Source: Yponomeuta sedellus
Lineage: Eukaryota > Arthropoda > Insecta > Lepidoptera > Yponomeutidae
Length of the DNA stretch: 64,000 nt
Reading direction: 5' to 3'
Assembly: GCA_934045075.1 (NCBI GenBank)
Contig: OW203751.1
Span: forward strand, 389,501 to 453,500
Below are positions 18,291 through 64,000 of the stretch, in pieces. Below the pieces are notes generated by a model. The model worked only from the letters and a program-made list of their open reading frames with translations, ran no database searches and had not been told where the DNA came from. The translations under genes and the position numbers were made by a program. Each line of letters opens with the position of its first letter. The first letter of the stretch is position 1.

Positions 18291-18626
18291 AGTAGGGTCA
18301 TTACGCTGGATCGCGGCCCTGCGTTGTTTCGCGGCCTTTTAGAGGACCAATCGCATAAACATTGCAATAATAAGAATTCTATCTCGCCCTTCCTAACGTG
18401 ATGTGGCTCTTTAAAAAGTAGGATAGTTGCATAAGGTCATGCCTATTCAAATAGGGCGGTTTACCTAGACATTGTGCCGGAAATAAATCGTCCATTTTGT
18501 CAGCCGCGCTGCCAGCGCACGTACGCACGGTGGTACCGTAGTAGGTCATAGGACTCGGATGGCAATGACTGAGCTAAGCCATGATATCTGGCTCAGTTAC
18601 CCACTAATTGTCATACTACCTGAGGG

Positions 18627-18635
18627 TATAAAAGG
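18627..18635 (+). promoter_or_regulatory. TATA box of the Transib transposase gene
   Basis: TATAAAAGG lies about 160 bp upstream of the ATG at 18789, and an insect initiator-like window follows about 30 bp downstream (ttcccaacatt). It is the only strong TATA motif between the left end and the start codon. Confidence 0.6.
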
Positions 18636-18788
18636 TTTCGCAATCTATTGTTCCCAACATTCCTTTTTCGGCATCCGAAGTGAACACAAGTAATTAGTCA
18701 TCAACCTGTTATCACCAAGTGCTTTAATTAGCCCAAGACGCGACGCGTGTGTTTAAGTTCCAACTTGTCTGTGACCTGCTATTTTACA

Positions 18789-21099
18789 ATGGAATTTGAA
18801 GTCACAGGTATGTATTATTAATTTACTTTACTATTTTGCCTTTTCCTTCTACATTTTTTTTTTAAATAGAGTGCTACGCCAACGTGGCATTTTTTATGTA
18901 TTTATGTCTGTATATTTTTTACGTTGAAGCTTTTACTTATGTTTGTACCTACTTGTACCATTCAATTTGGTATAGAAATATGGGTTACAATGTCTACTAC
19001 TAGGCCTCTCCAAATTTAGCTGCGTCATGCTGCGTCTGTAAGGTGCAGCCAGGTGCTACGCCGCGCGCCTGAACGCGTAGCAGGCGCGTAGCACTTGCTA
19101 CGAAACATGTATCTATTTTGATCCGCTTTTAACGTATTTTTATTTTGTTTTAGGTACTAGTATTAAGTGTTCTTTCAAAAGAATGCTTGTACTAGATACT
19201 TGGCTGTCTATTAAAGACAGCAAATCTGAACTGGAGCGTTGGCATCGAGTTTTTCGAGACCTAATACAATTGCTGCCTGATGTTGAGAATTACATTGCTG
19301 ATGACTTGGAAAAAAGAGTTACTAAAGTTTGTACAAGATTGGTAGCAATTTGGAAGCAAGTCACGCGCAACCATTCTCGCATGGTCTCTAAGTACGGAGA
19401 CTGGCTGAACGAAATTGAAGTTTGCGTTCTGCCAACTTGTGCAACAGTAGGGAGCCACAACACCCAACGGCCAGCAGCAGAAGCTTCGACAAGCACCCAA
19501 CAGCACCAGCACAGGAAGGACTTTGAGGAATGTAGCAAGAGATCAAAACGCCGCAGGCTTGCAGAGTTAAGTAAAGTAGACAGTTCTGCGATAAATTCTT
19601 TGTTGGACGATTCTAGTCTATCTAACGCCGCTGCATCTTTAAATTTCAGCACTGACGAAGTCTTGTCTCTTATAAATGAGACAAAACTGACTAAACATCA
19701 GTATCTTTTGGTGAAAGACTTCGTTAATGCAAAATCACCTAATGCATTACCATCTTATCAAAAAGTGTTAGAAGCTAAGAAGCGGTGCTATCCATCGCAA
19801 GAGTTTATCACGGAATCATCTGCTGAAGTAGAATTACAATCATTGTTAGATCATACTGCTTGCCGGATACTAGAATCCCAAAAACCCGTTTTGAATAATA
19901 TTGACCCTAATAAAGAATTTGTTTTGATTGGAAAATGGGGTTTCGATGGGAGTACGGGGCACAGCGAATATAAACAGATTTTTGGAGATTCTGGTATCGA
20001 TGATGATGGCAGTATGTTTGTTACTTCATATTGTCCTCTTCAATTGGTTTGTAAGTCCAATACCTCCGACCCAGATCAAATAGTTTGGAAAAATCCGCGC
20101 CCTTCTTCCACCAGGTATTGTAGGCCTATTCGATTCCAATTTGCCAAAGAATCCAAAGACCTTTCTGTGCAAGAAGAAGCTTATTTCAAGACTAAAATTG
20201 ATAGTTTACAACCGACTTCTTTCACTCACGGTGAATATGAAATAAAAGTGCAGCATTCTTTACAATTAACCATGGTTGATGGTAAAGTGTGCAGTGCTCT
20301 GAGCGATACATCTTGTAGTAGATGTTATATTTGTGGTTCAACTCCAAAAGAGATGAATGACATTGATAAATCGCTGAGCAAAACTGCAGATAGTGGTACC
20401 TATCAATTTGGACTATCTCCTCTTCACTCGTATATCCGATTCTTCGAATATTTAATTCACGTTTCTTATAGATTAGACATAAAGAAATGGCAGGTACGTT
20501 CTTCAGACGAAAAAGCTCTTCTTGCACAAAAAAAACAACATGTGCAGCAACAGTTTAGGCAGAAACTTGGTCTAATAGTCGACAAACCGCGAAGTGGAGG
20601 AAGTGGCACATCTAACGACGGAAACACTGCCAGAAAGTTTTTTTCTAACTCAGCGGTTTCAGCGGAAATTACTGGATTAGATAAAATCCTTATTGACAGA
20701 TGTCATAATCTGCTGCAGTGTCTTTCGTCGGGATACAAAATTAATAACGCCACTTTTAAAGAGTATTCTCTAGAAACAGCACGTAAACTTGTTGCTACCT
20801 ATCCATGGTACAACTTGCCATCGTCTGTACATAAGGTCCTCATTCATGGGTCGGAAGTAATTGAACACGCATTATTGTCAATAGGTGAGCTTTCGGAAGA
20901 GGCCGCCGAATCTTGCAATAAATTAATCAAACTCTTCAGGCGTGACAACACGAGGAAAATGTCTCGGGTTGTCACAAACACCGACTTGATACATAGACTT
21001 CTCCTTAATTCGGATCCTTATATTTCTAGTTTAAGAAGGTTACCACAGAAGAAGAAGTCTATTCTATCAAAAGAAGTATTAAATTTGTTGTCGGTTTAG
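18789..21099 (+). CDS. Transib transposase (RAG1-like), two exons, intact
   Basis: Exon 1 is 18789-18807 (ATG, then MEFEVT) with donor G|gtatgt. The intron is 18808-19153 with acceptor ttttgttttag. Exon 2 is 19154-21099, and joining keeps the frame, giving 654 residues, a normal Transib length. The core resembles RAG1/Transib: WGFDGSTGHSEY holds the first catalytic Asp (D271), TMVDGKVCSA the second (D382). The SEEAAESCNK block (about 587-596) holds the catalytic Glu. Zinc ligands match the RAG1 pattern: CYIC (C397, C400) and HKVLIH (H566, H571, spacing five). GLSPLHSYIRFFEYL and PWYNLPSSVHKVLIHG are further family blocks. The enzyme cuts at the CAC ends and gives 5-bp duplications. No stop or frameshift was seen. 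Starting at 19183 would give 638 residues and skip exon 1. Confidence 0.93.
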
Positions 21100-21288
21100 G
21101 AAAAAATGTAAAAAATAAGATAGGTATTTATGTTATTTTTTACATAACTCCTATTATGTAAATATAATATTTTTTGTCCAATTGTGTGTTTGTACTTAGA
21201 TGTTAGTTAAGTATTTACTTTATTTGTAATATAAAATGTAAATAGTAAGGTTTAATAGTTATTAAGTTGCAAACCTTCTTTTAAGTGT

Positions 21289-21316
21289 AATAAAAATGCA
21301 TAATTTTGTAAATAAA
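21289..21316 (+). terminator. Polyadenylation signals of the Transib gene
   Basis: Two AATAAA hexamers (21289-21294, 21311-21316) lie about 190-217 bp after the stop and before the right end, followed by a T-run. They fit a compact 3' UTR within the element. Confidence 0.6.
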
Positions 21317-21644
21317 ATAAGCTTTTTAAGATTATTTTGTTTTTTTTTTATTGTGTTATGGCTTAAAGTATTACAAAACACCATAATAATAATAATCAGC
21401 TATGACAACGACAGTCATTATTATCGCGAAACCCTATGACCGCTACTCTTAGGGCGTGGAACCAGTGTGGTACGCACGCAAAGCTGCAGAAAAAATAGCG
21501 AACCGGTCCCGCTTCCAATGTAAGTATTTCAAGTTTACGATTAGTTATTACTTTTGTGATTGTTTTTATGTGCTTATAGTTGTTTGATTAACTTCATTTT
21601 GCATTTATTTTGGGAGTAAATTGCTTTAATACCAGTTTTATTAG

Positions 21645-21985
21645 GTGGCCGCCAACCAACACATTAAATTTTTAGTAACGTTGGTATACGGCCGGGTGGC
21701 CGCGGCACTAACTCACTGAATGAAATAAGTTTGCTTCCTTTCCTATTATTAACGTAAATAAAGTTTCGTTTTCTGCAACATTTTTATGCTGTCGGGGTTG
21801 GTTTAAATGCTGTGGTTAGTTCACGGCCACTAAAATATAATTTTATACGGATTTATAGCTATAAAGTGGCCGCAAATTAACACATGCTAACAAAACAAAT
21901 CTGGTTCGCGGCCGTCTGAAAATCATATGAAAAATGAACGGCCGTTAGCTGACTATTGAAAATAGAGGTGTCAGTTTACGGCCAC
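21645..21985 (+). promoter_or_regulatory. Cluster of GGCCG motifs in the pogo-like element (left side)
   Basis: About seven or eight sites centred on GGCCG occur in 340 bp (near 21647, 21690, 21698, 21824, 21868, 21907, 21939, 21979), in both orientations. Aligned, they read roughly (A/G)(G/C)TGGCCGYNAAC. More sites occur at 18313 and 18331 and on the right at 25701, 25745 and 25937. The surroundings are AT-rich, so this is non-random. They are candidate transposase-binding subterminal repeats. The promoter of the transposase gene should also lie here. Confidence 0.6.
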
Positions 21986-22038
21986 TTCTTTCAAATAGAC
22001 TATTTGGTTGGTGTTTAGATAATTTTTGTTTTTACAGA

Positions 22039-24780
22039 ATGTCTACCAAAAAACCGAAAAAAAAATCTGTAACTTACACTCCTGAAGCCCTACAGCAGGC
22101 ACTAAAGGAAATCCGCGACGACCAAATCACAATCAGGGAAGCATCTCGTAAATTTGGGATTCCGAGATGTACAATTCAAGATCGATTAAGTGGCAGAAGG
22201 ACCGAAGAACTAAAAAAACATGGCCCCGAGCCAGTGCTGGGAGAACAAGGTGAAAAAAAAGTTGTAGAGTGGCTTATAACTATAGCAAAATGTGGTTTTC
22301 CAGTCAAGAAACAAGAACTGTTAGACACTGTGCAAAAAATTTTTAAAGATTTAAAAAAGCCGAACCCTTTTAAAGATGATCGTCCTGGTCAGACATGGTA
22401 CCTAAACTTTCTAAAGAGACACCCTGAAATATCAGTTAGATCTGCAGAAGGCATCAACAAGGCTCGCGCGAGGGTGACTGAAGAATCTATACGGCTGTGG
22501 TTCCGCGAACTGGATATATATTTAGCGCAAGAGGGACACTTGGACATACTTAAAGAACCCAAAAGAATATTTAATGGCGATGAAAGTGGCTTTTCACTTT
22601 GCCCAAAAACAGGAAAAGTTCTTGGCCCCAAAGGTTATCGCAATTTGTATCAAATTAAAGCTGGCAACGAAAAAGATAACCTGACAGTACTAGTGACATT
22701 TAACGCTAGTGGTGAGATGTGCCCGCCATTGGTAGTTTTCCCATACATCAGACCACCAAAAAGTGTAACCGACAGCATACCACAAGACTGGAGTCTTGGA
22801 AGAAGTGAATCAGGCTGGATGAATGGTGATGTATTCTTCGAATACATCACTAATGATTTTAATAATTGGATCACAGAAAAAAAAATTAAAAAGCCCGTTC
22901 TACTGCTAGTCGACGGACATAAGTCACATATGTCTTTAATGCTGAGCTCTATCTGTGAAGAGCTTGGTATTATTCTATATGCTCTTCCCCCAAACACTAC
23001 GCACATGTTGCAGCCTGCCGATGTCAGCGTGTTTGCTCCATTAAAAGCCCAATGGAAGAGCCACGTCAGACAATTTCTTGCAAAGCCAGAAAATTCGAAC
23101 AAAACTGTAACAAAAACCAATTTCTGTCTCCTTTTTAAAGACATAATCGAAAATCCACAAATGAAAATTAATATCGTTAGTGGATTTAGGCGATGTGGTC
23201 TTTTCCCGTATGATCCAGACGCAGTCGACTACACGAAATGTGTCCAAAACACATTGGAACAATTTAGTCGACCGACTGGTTTGCGTGAGAACTCGGGAAT
23301 AACGAATGGAGACCTCATCGCTGCCCGCAAAGTGATTCGTCATTTGAGACCAGTCTTAAAGCAGAAGAAGATTGACACAAAATTTATCCTAAAGGAAATC
23401 AAAAAACTGAGGAGGTCAGAACCCAGAGAACCTCAATATATTACCGGATCTGAAGACAATACAAACTCAACACTTGAAGTGTCGAGCGTTCCCAACCTTT
23501 TGTCAATTGTTTCGGCTCATACATCTGCGAATGCTTCTAATCTCGCCCCGCAGCCGCATGTTTCCGATACAAACCCGCCGCATGTTTCCGATGTGACCCC
23601 TCCAAATGTTACCGATCTCGCTCCGTCGCATATTCATGATCCTGTCCCACTGAATCTTGTGATTGCTGCTGACGTTCCCGATCATGCCTCTAAGAGTGTT
23701 CCGAATTATAGCTTGTCGAATTTAGTAACAACTGATTTTAGCGGTCTTGAGCTGGGAACAGTGGTTTCACTGGACGATATTATGGTCATACCGTTCCAAA
23801 CCAGTACACCCAAGAACCGAAACGTAAGCCCCAAATCTCCAGTTCCTAATGAAATCTCTTCATCTTCAAAACCAGACTCAAATGACGTCCCTCTATGCAT
23901 GAAACAGATATACCAAATTAAGATTACAGATGAACCTGGAAGTTTGGAAAATGGCAACGAACTAGTTCCACATAGTAGCCTAAAGAAGCAAGTGGGATCT
24001 GATAATCGTGACACCGACTCAGTAGCATTATCTCAAGTGCCAACTTCAAAAGACAACTTGCCATTATGTACCGTTACTACCTCAGAAAATTTATCGGAAG
24101 GCGAAACTAAAAGTTTGACATTTGGCGTCACTCGCAAGCAACCAGAAGGAAGGTCTCTTTTATCACTGGATGATGTTACAGTTATTCCAACTATATCAGA
24201 ACATTCAGATTCCAATCCTATTCTGTCAAAGCAAGGAACAACTTCCACAATTACGTCCGCATCCGCCAAAAAGAAAATTTCAATAGATCCAGACACAGTA
24301 TTCGGGCAACATCTGTTTATACCCCAACCTCTAGAAAAGTCCAAACAAAACGCATCTAAAGCTCGTATTCCGTCGGCGATATCAGGGAAAAAATGGCGAG
24401 AGTACCATTTACTAAAAGAAAAAGCTAAACAAGAAAAGAATGAGGAGAAAGAAAAAGCTAAAGTAGCTAGAAAGCAAGCCATGAAGCGTAAGCAAGAGGA
24501 AGCGAAGAAAAAGAAAGAAATATACAAAGCTAAGAAACTAAAAAAAGGAACACTTTTAAAGACTAAAGAGTTAGGATCAAAACAAAACATTAAACAAAAT
24601 TGTGGCCAATGCACAAATATCTTAAACAGTGACACTGAGGACGATGAAAACAAAAATGTTGGCTGTGATTTTTGTACTAAATGGTTTCATTTGAAATGCA
24701 CTGATTTTAAAGGACTGACTTATGATGATGTAAAAGATAAACCATTCAAGTGTAACATGTGCCTTATTAATAAGGAATAG
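22039..24780 (+). CDS. pogo/Tigger-like DDE transposase with C-terminal PHD finger
   Basis: A 913-residue protein. The ATG lies just after a splice-acceptor-like tttttacag, implying an upstream non-coding exon. Domains: a basic start; a Psq-type helix-turn-helix (about 12-53, ITIREASRKFGIPRCTIQDR); a CENP-B-type helix-turn-helix (about 68-140, WYLNFLKRHPEIS); and a DDE_1 core (about 170-400) with FNGDESGF (D181), LLLVDGHKSH (D292) and MLQPADVSVF (D328), so the triad is DDD with 35 residues between the last two. A long Ser/Pro-rich linker and a Lys-rich coiled segment (about 800-850) follow. The last 60 residues hold a C4HC3 PHD finger (CGQC, CDFC, WFHLKC, CNMC). It cuts and pastes the element at TA. 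The PHD finger may target chromatin (inference). No disruption was seen. Confidence 0.9.
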   Translation: MSTKKPKKKSVTYTPEALQQALKEIRDDQITIREASRKFGIPRCTIQDRLSGRRTEELKKHGPEPVLGEQGEKKVVEWLITIAKCGFPVKKQELLDTVQKIFKDLKKPNPFKDDRPGQTWYLNFLKRHPEISVRSAEGINKARARVTEESIRLWFRELDIYLAQEGHLDILKEPKRIFNGDESGFSLCPKTGKVLGPKGYRNLYQIKAGNEKDNLTVLVTFNASGEMCPPLVVFPYIRPPKSVTDSIPQDWSLGRSESGWMNGDVFFEYITNDFNNWITEKKIKKPVLLLVDGHKSHMSLMLSSICEELGIILYALPPNTTHMLQPADVSVFAPLKAQWKSHVRQFLAKPENSNKTVTKTNFCLLFKDIIENPQMKINIVSGFRRCGLFPYDPDAVDYTKCVQNTLEQFSRPTGLRENSGITNGDLIAARKVIRHLRPVLKQKKIDTKFILKEIKKLRRSEPREPQYITGSEDNTNSTLEVSSVPNLLSIVSAHTSANASNLAPQPHVSDTNPPHVSDVTPPNVTDLAPSHIHDPVPLNLVIAADVPDHASKSVPNYSLSNLVTTDFSGLELGTVVSLDDIMVIPFQTSTPKNRNVSPKSPVPNEISSSSKPDSNDVPLCMKQIYQIKITDEPGSLENGNELVPHSSLKKQVGSDNRDTDSVALSQVPTSKDNLPLCTVTTSENLSEGETKSLTFGVTRKQPEGRSLLSLDDVTVIPTISEHSDSNPILSKQGTTSTITSASAKKKISIDPDTVFGQHLFIPQPLEKSKQNASKARIPSAISGKKWREYHLLKEKAKQEKNEEKEKAKVARKQAMKRKQEEAKKKKEIYKAKKLKKGTLLKTKELGSKQNIKQNCGQCTNILNSDTEDDENKNVGCDFCTKWFHLKCTDFKGLTYDDVKDKPFKCNMCLINKE

Positions 24781-60798: not shown

Positions 60799-62517
60799 TC
60801 AGCGTCTGGGCTCTGGGAAAATAGAGCTGACTCCGGGTTTAGAGGCTGGGTCGCCAGGCGTAACTCCTCCCTCCTTAAGATCGAAGTTCTCTTCCTTAGG
60901 AGCAGAACTTCGATTACAGGTCTTCAACAATTCAAGGCGATACTTATAAGCTAACACACACAGAAATACAAATAACGCTATATAGAGAACAATCGTCCAG
61001 ACACTAATTTCTTTCACTGTAATGATTGCTTTTTCACTTTCACTGTCACTTTTCTTCAGGGCGTATGACAGGAATTTGATGTCGGTCAAGTCAATGCCCT
61101 CCAGGTTTACCGGTTTCGATGGTACTGTTTTTACAGGAGATTTCACTACAGGTAAGTTTACTACGGGCATCGCAGGGTACTCGATATCCTCGATGTCGGT
61201 AGGGTGCATTTTCAGAAGGACCTCTCCAATACGTACTTCACACGGGTCGTCTAAAGTAAGTATGTAGGTGCCGTGGACCTTCTGGCGGAATATTTCATTG
61301 GTGCAGGTTCTGGAGAGCAACTTTTCTTCTCTACTGTAGAGTATCCACCTATTGGGTTGTATTATCTGGACCTTTACTGGTTCTATGGAGACTTGAACTT
61401 GAGTGCATGACGTCACGTTTTCAGTATAAGTCATCAGCTGGTTGACGCAAGAATCTTGAATGTAGTGGGAAGTGTCGTCATCGATGCAGAGAAAGCTGGA
61501 CTCTTCGACTTCTTGGCATGGGTAAGTTAACAGTCTGATCTTCGACCCTTTCACTAGGGTGTAGGGATACTTGGGTATGATGATTACGGTGTGGTCATGG
61601 GATAGCACGGGTAATGGCAGGAGTTTATAATAGATATAGGTGTCTCTAGATACAAGCGGTATCTCCAACAGGTATGTTATTTGGTTTCCTTTAAAATAAG
61701 CTTTGAGCGTCATGGTTTGCTCTATCTTAACTAAATTTTCTAAGCTAGGTGCGTATACTAACGTTTCCACTCTACTAATCCTTTCGAGAAGGTTAAGCAA
61801 CTTAGAAGACTCTATTATAGACTGATGTAATACTCCTAATCTACTTATCGATAAGGTAGTTTCAATCTCATTCAATTTAATGTGGATTGTTTGGAAGTTA
61901 TGAATCAGCAAATTGTAGGTATTAATAATTTGGGTTTCCACGTGATTTAGATATACATTTCTTTGTATATCATTGAGTTTTTCTGATAGTTTCCGGATTT
62001 CTTCATTAATTTGTATGAGATTGTCATTTAACTTAAATGTCGAGTTGGCCAGGGAATGCACCATTTCAGTGATCAGTGTTAATTTTTGTCTATTGCTATT
62101 CTGATTTAATTTAACTTCATCAATAAGTTTCTCATATCGAATGGCATCGTCGTTATCCAGATTTCCTGTAATTACTTTAATTAATGATCCAAGGGGGTTA
62201 ATTAGGCCACGTTTTACACGGATAGAAGGTGCTACTTGCTGGAACTTCTCTACTGTCAGATTTTTGACGTATTCTGTCTGTATCCTTATAACTATAAAAT
62301 TATATGTAAAATTCTTATCAAATGTCTTAACTAACTTATCTAATGCGGATGCTAGCTTGCTGTTAGTCTTCAAATCGTCAACGATGGGTTTGAAGTCAAG
62401 CATCTTAGCAATGATCCACTTGTCCTTGCTAAGGACAGCGACGCCTTGCTTCACGGGAAGGATACCAGGATTACTACTTAGGTCCTGAATTTGAAGGGCC
62501 TGGAGTTGGGTCACCAT
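60799..62517 (-). CDS. env: Errantivirus envelope glycoprotein (baculovirus F-like)
   Basis: 572 residues from the ATG at 62517, uninterrupted. A furin-type site RVKR (100-103) is followed by a fusion-peptide-like GLINPLGSLIKVITGNLD (from 104). A helical, Asn/Leu-rich heptad region (about 130-260) and a Cys-containing ectodomain follow. A membrane anchor lies at about 503-524 (TIVLYIALFVFLCVLAY), with a 48-residue tail. This is the layout of insect errantivirus Env, related to baculovirus F proteins, which mediates fusion. No signal peptide lies after the ATG. The frame stays open upstream (RRRLLILAATM), and an acceptor-like ttcgcag sits there, which fits the spliced env message of this group. 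It overlaps pol by 44 nt. An old or recent insertion is possible; I saw no disabling change. Confidence 0.88.
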   Translation of the reverse strand: MVTQLQALQIQDLSSNPGILPVKQGVAVLSKDKWIIAKMLDFKPIVDDLKTNSKLASALDKLVKTFDKNFTYNFIVIRIQTEYVKNLTVEKFQQVAPSIRVKRGLINPLGSLIKVITGNLDNDDAIRYEKLIDEVKLNQNSNRQKLTLITEMVHSLANSTFKLNDNLIQINEEIRKLSEKLNDIQRNVYLNHVETQIINTYNLLIHNFQTIHIKLNEIETTLSISRLGVLHQSIIESSKLLNLLERISRVETLVYAPSLENLVKIEQTMTLKAYFKGNQITYLLEIPLVSRDTYIYYKLLPLPVLSHDHTVIIIPKYPYTLVKGSKIRLLTYPCQEVEESSFLCIDDDTSHYIQDSCVNQLMTYTENVTSCTQVQVSIEPVKVQIIQPNRWILYSREEKLLSRTCTNEIFRQKVHGTYILTLDDPCEVRIGEVLLKMHPTDIEDIEYPAMPVVNLPVVKSPVKTVPSKPVNLEGIDLTDIKFLSYALKKSDSESEKAIITVKEISVWTIVLYIALFVFLCVLAYKYRLELLKTCNRSSAPKEENFDLKEGGVTPGDPASKPGVSSIFPEPRR

Positions 62518-64000
62518 GGTTGCTGCCAGGATGAGCAGGCGTCTGCGAATGACGTTTAACGTGTTTTACTGGAACCTTAGTGACTCTTTTTCCAATACGT
62601 ATAGGGACTACGTTTCTATTTGTTTCACCTATCACCTCAGCTCGTAAATATCGGGGCTTATCCTTGCTACTTCTTTTGTTAGTGTCTTTTGCAAATATGA
62701 CGTTACCGGGTTCAATCGGAAAACTGCTTTCGCCACCTCTTTTCTGAACTATCTTCTTCTTCTTTTTGATGGTCTGCTCTGCTATGTGTTTGTAAAGGTA
62801 CTTTGTACGTTTTGCGTGTTCTTTGACTAACTGCTGGGTGTATTGCTTTTCAAAGTCTGAGTCAAATGTGTGTCTTGAGTCAGTATGTCCTAGCAACACT
62901 TCAAAAGGGGTCATACCAGTAGTGCTATGTATGCTATGGTTGTATGCCATTACGGAATAAGTCATTATTGAAGCAGCATCTGTATACTTTTGTTCGTATT
63001 TTGCCAATCTGTATATCTCTATTATTGTAGAGTGGAACCTCTCAATGAGTCCCATTGAATTTGGGTTGTTTGGGTTACCAATATGAAGGTCTACTTTGTA
63101 GAGAGAGAGAAGCTCTTTCATCAAAACGTTATTAAATTCAGAACCAGAGTCTGCGCTTATTTTTAGGGGTACGCCATAAAAAGAAAAGTATTTTATCAGG
63201 GCTCGAACTACCTCAGGGGTAGAACGGTTTGGAATTTCGAAGGCCTGTCCAAGTTTGCTGAAGGCATCGATTATTGTCAGGTAGTAACGACCTTCTATGG
63301 AAAATAGGTCGATAAAAATTTCCTGTAACGGTTTAGTTTGGGTCTGGGTTAGTTGTAATTCAGGTTTTAGAGGATTTCTGTCGTATTTGGCCTTTTGGCA
63401 GAGTTCGCAAGAGTTTATTATACTTGATATAATTGGTCCCATGTTATGCCAAAAATATGTGCGTTTTATGTGAGCTAATGTTTCCCTAATACCTCTATGA
63501 CACGTTTTGCCAATGTGGTACTTTTTGACAATGCTCTGTTGTTCTGTTTCATCGTCTACAAAAATGACTCTTTGGGTACACTCGTAAAATTTTACAAGTT
63601 CCTTTTTAAACAGGAATATCACTGCTTCTGTGAATTGTCGGCGGTGTTTGTCATCTTCAAAGTAGATAAAGTACTTTGCCTTGTTCTTGATATACTCTTT
63701 GAGAAACTGCTTAACAAGATCAGGTCGATTCGTAGGTAAATGTACTTCTAGAATACGCTGCTTCTCTCTAGACAAGTCTTTAACTGAAAGTTTATCAATG
63801 AACCAGGTGAAGACCAAAATTTGGTTGGGCTTTGTGTCAATTGCTTCCTGTAAAATGGGAATACCTTCGGATTCAGTGTCTAATGCTGAATGAGCTGTTG
63901 CAGTACCTGAAGATTTTTCTGATGCTGTCATAGTGTCACTAGAAGGGCTGGGGATAGAGTATGGAGATCTACGTCCTAATCGCATCGTTACGTCAGAGTC
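62474..64000 (-). CDS. pol: Errantivirus pol, integrase part (cut by window edge)
   Basis: Open from the right edge to a stop at 62474. Numbering from the Met at 63985, the integrase has the H2C2 zinc finger H157, H163, C193, C196 (KTCHRG...CELCQ). The DDE core is IFIDLF (D226), ISADSGSEF (D279) and GLIERFH (E315), with 35 residues between the last two. A basic C-terminal region ends in TPGPSNSGPK. Protease, reverse transcriptase and RNase H would lie beyond 64000. The frame is open upstream of 63985, so that Met is not the true start. Gene order pol-env on minus matches Ty3/gypsy errantiviruses such as TED. It inserts viral cDNA into host DNA. Confidence 0.9.
   Translation of the reverse strand, partial: DSDVTMRLGRRSPYSIPSPSSDTMTASEKSSGTATAHSALDTESEGIPILQEAIDTKPNQILVFTWFIDKLSVKDLSREKQRILEVHLPTNRPDLVKQFLKEYIKNKAKYFIYFEDDKHRRQFTEAVIFLFKKELVKFYECTQRVIFVDDETEQQSIVKKYHIGKTCHRGIRETLAHIKRTYFWHNMGPIISSIINSCELCQKAKYDRNPLKPELQLTQTQTKPLQEIFIDLFSIEGRYYLTIIDAFSKLGQAFEIPNRSTPEVVRALIKYFSFYGVPLKISADSGSEFNNVLMKELLSLYKVDLHIGNPNNPNSMGLIERFHSTIIEIYRLAKYEQKYTDAASIMTYSVMAYNHSIHSTTGMTPFEVLLGHTDSRHTFDSDFEKQYTQQLVKEHAKRTKYLYKHIAEQTIKKKKKIVQKRGGESSFPIEPGNVIFAKDTNKRSSKDKPRYLRAEVIGETNRNVVPIRIGKRVTKVPVKHVKRHSQTPAHPGSNHGDPTPGPSNSGPK

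Follow-up and report, generated by a model that had tools for sequence, protein, structure and literature searches.

The 64-kb window, that is, the whole stretch of DNA analysed here, belongs to an assembly of 657.5 Mb in 57 contigs and contains an intact Transib DNA transposon related to RAG1. The element measures 2,944 bp and is bounded on both sides by exact copies of GTACG, as the first-pass annotation had claimed (Table 1). Its left terminus reads CACGGTGGTACC and its right terminus, read inward, CACACTGGTTCC; both begin with CAC and resemble the RSS heptamer (CACGGTG and CACACTG), as is typical of the Transib superfamily. A literature search of titles and abstract openings, with most subscription journals outside its coverage, returned no report of this element.

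Table 1. Positions in the window of the Transib element, its ends and its transposase.
Feature	Position	Strand	Basis
Target-site duplication GTACG, left	18521..18525	.	Sequence comparison of copies
Complete Transib, 2,944 bp	18526..21469	+	40 scored copies (best 40 of 336 candidates) identical over the same span, with differing flanks; empty sites
Heptamer-like left end CACGGTG	18526..18532	+	Sequence
Left spacer, 11 bp	18533..18543	+	Sequence
Left inner 9-mer GGTCATAGG	18544..18552	+	Sequence; window count
AATGACTG, second motif common to both ends, left copy (ATGAC is GTCAT inverted)	18564..18571	+	
Exon 1, coding part	18789..18807	+	Splice sites inferred from sequence
Predicted GT...AG intron, 346 bp	18808..19153	+	Inferred from sequence
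Exon 2 including stop, most of the 654-aa transposase	19154..21099	+	Reading frame
Putative catalytic Asp 1 (KWGFDG), aligned to HzTransib D126	19945..19947	+	Alignment and inferred numbering offset
Putative catalytic Asp 2 (MVDGK), aligned to HzTransib D225	20278..20280	+	Alignment
Zinc Cys pair C-Y-I-C	20323..20334	+	Alignment; ligand role presumed
Zinc His pair H-K-V-L-I-H	20830..20847	+	Alignment; ligand role presumed
Putative catalytic Glu (final E of SEEAAE), aligned to HzTransib E436	20908..20910	+	Alignment
AATGACTG, right copy	21412..21419	-	Sequence
Right inner 9-mer GGTCATAGG	21433..21441	-	Sequence; window count
Right spacer, 21 bp	21442..21462	-	Sequence
Heptamer-like right end CACACTG	21463..21469	-	Sequence
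Target-site duplication GTACG, right	21470..21474	.	Sequence comparison of copies

The two exons, joined at a splice junction (18807/19154) that is predicted from the GT...AG borders and the reading frame, encode a transposase of 654 residues followed by a stop. The closest solved structure is the transposase of HzTransib from Helicoverpa zea (PDB 6pqn; 399 bits, E 3.3e-118), the runner-up, RAG1L 6b40, reaching 27 bits, and the homology runs from residue 160 to residue 647 of the exon-2 query (648 aa); the Pfam RAG1 match, at 23 bits, falls slightly under the cut-off of 25. HzTransib was the one published Transib used for sequence comparison, and its active site is given as D126, D225 and E436 (PMC6941560). 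If the published numbers differ from those of the 6pqn chain by a fixed 17, as we infer, these residues correspond to the aspartates of KWGFDG and MVDGK and to the final glutamate of SEEAAE, and their positions, together with the HzTransib match, place the protein among RAG1-core-like DDE transposases nearest Transib. The Cys pair of CYIC and the His pair of HKVLIH are likewise conserved with HzTransib (6pqn and related entries), and the alignment thereby recovers everything that had been listed for an unbroken RAG1-like transposase of this length: both Asp blocks, the SEEAAE block and the zinc Cys and His residues. The two pairs presumably act as zinc ligands, as we understand them to do in RAG1 and HzTransib, and we take the DDE core and the zinc layout to be common to this transposase and vertebrate RAG1.

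Differences from HzTransib concern size and the N-terminus. According to PMC1852546, HzTransib is 3,518 bp long and its deduced transposase has 489 aa (497 residues in the 6pqn chain), whereas the element described here is shorter by comparison and its protein longer, with about 160 extra N-terminal residues and the predicted intron. These residues (the first ~160 codons of 19153-21096) lack an equivalent in the 6pqn chain, and a Pfam search loosened to E 10 assigned them to no family; an AlphaFold model built on a two-sequence alignment (mean pLDDT 39.1) renders them mostly helical at very low confidence, and they are a candidate for an extra end-binding domain. No known domain able to bind the inner part of the ends was recognised in the protein. 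The N-terminal non-core region of RAG1 is described as missing in Transib in PMC7204232. No second open frame of at least 170 aa is present within the element, and less than 1 kb lies outside the transposase coding sequence; at this frame size the element has a single gene and no RAG2-like gene, as is usual for Transib, and, judged by open frames alone, it does not carry the convergent RAG1L and RAG2L genes of RAGL/ProtoRAG elements.

Aligned with each other, the two ends constitute one TIR broken by an 11-bp gap, in which a terminal block of 12 bp (nine positions identical) is followed by the gap and by an inner block containing GGTCATAGG and then AATGACTG, in the same order at both ends. The alignment scores 31.3, and the best of 3,000 shuffles reached 29.6. 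From the heptamer to the 9-mer the distance is 11 bp at the left end and 21 bp at the right end, read inward, and the right end appears from its sequence to be the same TIR plus about one additional helical turn. The window holds two exact matches to the 9-mer, one per end, where 0.28 are expected (1 of 100 shuffles also gave two). The shared 9-mer is by itself weak evidence, being just moderately improbable: a 9-mer common to two 53-nt ends arose in 139 of 20,000 shuffles and in 330 of 20,000 random window pairs. An enrichment of GTCAT at the ends is suggestive only; counted on both strands, this 5-mer is present in six copies across the outermost 100 bp of the two ends combined and in 11 over the whole element, ATTAT likewise occurs six times in the outer ends, and some 5-mer reached at least six in 18 of 2,000 shuffles.

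The parallel with the 12/23 asymmetry of V(D)J signals that was drawn on the first pass survives in part. The 10-bp difference in spacing stands. The inner 9-mer does not resemble the RSS nonamer, with GGTCATAGG matching ACAAAAACC at two of nine letters, and asymmetric Transib ends had already been published. An RSS nonamer at canonical spacing was rejected, the best match to ACAAAAACC being four of nine letters at spacings of 11-13 and 20-24 and five of nine at any spacing tried. With spacers of 11 and 21 bp and the A-rich nonamer ACAAAAACC absent, the ends do not form a 12/23-type RSS pair. Compared with the vertebrate 12RSS and 23RSS, each heptamer differs from CACAGTG at one place and the spacing offset is likewise about one turn; unlike the vertebrate RAG1/RSS system, the element has 11/21 instead of 12/23, no RSS nonamer and no RAG2, and it is mobile.

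Among Transibs, asymmetric 12/23-like ends are described for Transib5 of Drosophila and Transib2/N1-N3 of Anopheles, and symmetric spacers of 20-22 bp for others, in PMC8355894. Transib5 and Transib2/N1-N3 combine, as here, a heptamer with an inner 9-mer at unlike spacings; by their description there, they keep 12/23 within 1 bp and some have RSS-like nonamers, whereas the present element has 11/21 and an unrelated 9-mer. Most Transibs are characterized in PMC8289069 as symmetric, HzTransib included, with little or no likeness to the nonamer, in contrast to the asymmetric ends found here. HzTransib likewise has 5-bp duplications and TIRs (PMC1852546). ProtoRAG of amphioxus, as portrayed in PMC8289069, also has bipartite, asymmetric ends starting with CAC and GC-biased 5-bp duplications, but it differs in carrying RAG1L and RAG2L genes, against one gene here, and in a 27/31 spacing, against 11/21. 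The asymmetry is a known Transib variation, and the 11/21 ends with their private 9-mer add one more case. It may be a historical accident, in which an indel of ~10 bp struck one end, kept helical phase by chance and is merely tolerated. This reading is a serious possibility, given that one 11-bp gap accounts for nearly all of the difference between the ends and that spacings of both kinds, symmetric and asymmetric, are on record for Transibs (PMC8355894); against it, the difference is close to one turn and not of arbitrary length, which in one family may itself be chance.

Exact matches to the 49-nt left end number 314 in the genome (148 forward, 166 reverse); those to the 49-nt right end number 307 (163 forward, 144 reverse), and the reversed-pattern control gave none for either. 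A search confined to left-with-right pairs, applied to 100 listed left ends of the 314, found for 95 a correctly oriented, exact right end no more than 8 kb away; five left ends had no exact right end nearby, and two right ends no exact left end. Seventy of these 95 pairs enclose exactly 2,944 bp and 85 lie within 2,934-2,969 bp, the shorter elements comprising eight of 2,181 bp, one of 1,796 bp and one of 711 bp. At 85 near full-length elements per 100 listed left ends, roughly 265 of the 314 would be near full-length. The 2,181-bp form, an internal deletion with a single junction at element positions about 1671/2432, was met in 3 of 39 sampled copies (L053, L064, L079), at three places and with exact duplications, and we read such copies as non-autonomous derivatives mobilised by intact ones. 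Two further copies (L051 and L058) have 2,934 bp with one 10-bp deletion each and possibly represent one sub-lineage of the burst.

The fairest sample of the family consists of 23 consecutive left-end matches, from C1 to C3:4.1 Mb. Its copies diverge by 18 substitutions in 64,442 aligned bp (2.8e-4, or 0.028%), and six are letter-identical over all 2,944 bp. The frame is full-length in 15 of the 23 (nine proteins identical), seven being scored as broken and one (L054) not assessable owing to a substitution in the splice anchor; among the broken, the score of L044 may reflect the end of the fetched DNA, as ~1.5 kb of foreign DNA lies inside the stretch. Scaled to 314, this proportion suggests that roughly two hundred copies have an open frame. 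The 40 scored copies (best 40 of 336 candidates) are letter-identical, which is a top-of-list figure and not a frequency because the query included the window's GTACG flanks and favoured like-flanked copies; among 39 further usable copies, 11 are identical. One copy of which 147 bases were fetched (L078) is excluded from all copy counts. Older relatives are almost absent, since allowing up to three mismatches in the outer 27 nt raises the 314 exact 49-mers only to 322.

These figures describe a very recent burst of ~300 near-identical copies from one founder sequence. Butterflies mutate at a rate near 3e-9 per site and generation, which makes the burst at most about 100,000 generations old, and younger if some of the differences are assembly errors. 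Its scale and freshness, with ~265 near full-length copies and two thirds of the consecutive sample in frame, are the remarkable part; they contrast with the remark in PMC4411706 that the copy number of autonomous Transibs is typically one or, at most, a few. The burst shows a transposon wave at an early stage, and its sequences suggest that the element was recently, and possibly still is, active. Instead of a new arrival, a long-resident family might have had its copies made uniform by gene conversion, or might have been revived from one old master. Other Transib families do reside in the same genome, and the revival of one old copy would leave much the same picture as arrival; this alternative is nevertheless rather unlikely, in that just about eight extra left ends appear at three mismatches in 27 nt and gene conversion over some 300 dispersed sites would be unusual.

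The reading we prefer, with a probability of roughly 0.85, is that of an autonomous Transib which expanded very recently from one founder to ~300 copies and whose bipartite ends carry a spacing offset that is more likely tolerated, or an aid to pairing, than a strict rule. By analogy with HzTransib and RAG biochemistry, from which the mode of movement is taken, the spliced 654-aa DDE transposase would bind both ends and cut at the CAC heptamers, probably with the hairpin-on-flank chemistry of HzTransib, and the excised element would be reinserted at GC-rich sites with 5-bp duplications in a cut-and-paste manner. Each end would be bipartite, with a terminal block of ~12 bp where the cut is made and, farther in, a block (the 9-mer and inverted GTCAT motifs) that may serve as a second transposase contact. 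At the right end these blocks would lie about one helical turn farther apart, with both contacts staying on the same face of the helix, and this phase-preserving offset is most likely tolerated, or helps the pairing of unlike ends, rather than reflecting a strict rule of the 12/23 type. Horizontal transfer would be the likeliest source of the founder, and the burst perhaps followed such an arrival. The exact left end has no match in viral contigs, and three stretches matched the pattern in a protein search for relatives in viral contigs, none of which was confirmed.

A stricter version holds that the asymmetry is enforced, the transposase pairing two ends only when one has the 11-bp and the other the 21-bp spacer, as a counterpart of 12/23 with another nonamer. 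The 10-bp difference in spacing, with its conserved 9-mer and flanking homology, fits this version, as do the 2,181-, 1,796- and 711-bp deletion derivatives, all of which retain one end of each kind. No two left ends adjoin within 8 kb among the 100 listed of 314, and hence no element there has two left ends; near the two unpaired right ends, no left end was found among the same 100. ProtoRAG, moreover, prefers its own asymmetric 27/31 ends, according to PMC8289069. However, one end of each kind is what descent from a very recent single founder would produce in any case, and the same paper calls most Transibs, HzTransib among them, symmetric, which makes enforcement improbable. The alignment of ends across copies that had been proposed at the outset revealed ends that hardly vary, and copies so recent and near-invariant cannot decide whether the spacing is enforced. 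An offset of one turn keeps the two binding sites on one helix face, and tolerance, preference and a strict requirement therefore all fit. An exploding Transib with an obligate one-turn 11/21 asymmetry, read through a non-RSS nonamer and perhaps through the extra ~160 N-terminal residues, would amount to a 12/23-like rule without RAG2, a quite improbable combination. How the 12/23 rule arose is one of the unsolved questions about the beginnings of adaptive immunity, and an intact transposase, asymmetric ends and many open-frame copies together would provide a natural system for direct tests of end pairing.

The insertion sites count in favour of the preferred account. Exact 5-bp duplications flank 19 of the 21 consecutive copies that have an exact right end and 72 of 77 overall (of 79 usable copies, two without an exact right end, L043 and L044, being excluded from these counts); the 5-bp flanks are unlike each other in the remaining five (L045, L058, L063, L065, L067). 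At the left 5-mers of the 23 consecutive copies, positions 1, 2, 4 and 5 are C in 16, purine in 17, pyrimidine in 16 and G in 15, and the GC content of these 5-mers is 65% against 37.7% for the window, in keeping with the GC-rich 5-bp duplications of the superfamily. A consensus drawn from the 40 best-scoring copies was discarded, as the GTACG flanks of the query favoured like-flanked copies, and the 23 consecutive copies were used. For one insertion (L003), the joined flanks were used to look for empty sites. Of 4,241 candidate places 40 were scored; 38 of these continue across the junction without a break, at 90-92% identity, and the other two are the halves of L003 itself. These uninterrupted repeat copies fix the borders of the element and its 5-bp duplication. 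An assembly artefact or one duplicated block behind the many near-identical copies, one of the top 40 of which (L011) lies on a small 157-kb contig, is very improbable, since the 40 top copies occupy 40 distinct 25-bp insertion sites, duplications vary among copies and paralogous empty sites exist at the one site tested.

At least two further Transib families are present in the genome, with three matches 68-69% and many 51-59% identical to the HzTransib segment among 89 scored of 857 candidates. For one of them, F2, the right end inferred from a single copy (L081) begins with CACGGTG, with CGGAG as a candidate duplication. Two F2 copies (L081:2916-2960 and L082:2840-2884) read SEEASK instead of SEEASE, with Lys at the position of the HzTransib catalytic Glu, and reach an in-frame TAA nine codons farther on; most F2 matches in the genome also contain one TAA, among the 89 scored of 857. 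With dozens of copies and an apparently defective transposase, F2 was presumably moved by the enzyme of another Transib.

The young family has itself received a later insertion, L044 being broken at about element position 124-133, where ~1.5 kb of unrelated sequence is bordered by a repeat of roughly 10 bp. In the window, a 943-codon open frame (21949-24780, forward strand) starts 480 bp downstream of the Transib element and contains DDE_1 and Psq domains, in addition to two matches that fall just under curated cut-offs, to a DNA-binding domain of the Tc5 type and, C-terminally, to a PHD finger; on its domain content it is probably a transposase of the pogo kind or a gene that descends from such a transposase. 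A 588-codon open frame on the reverse strand (60799-62565) matches the baculovirus F protein family, as do envelope-like genes of insect retroelements.
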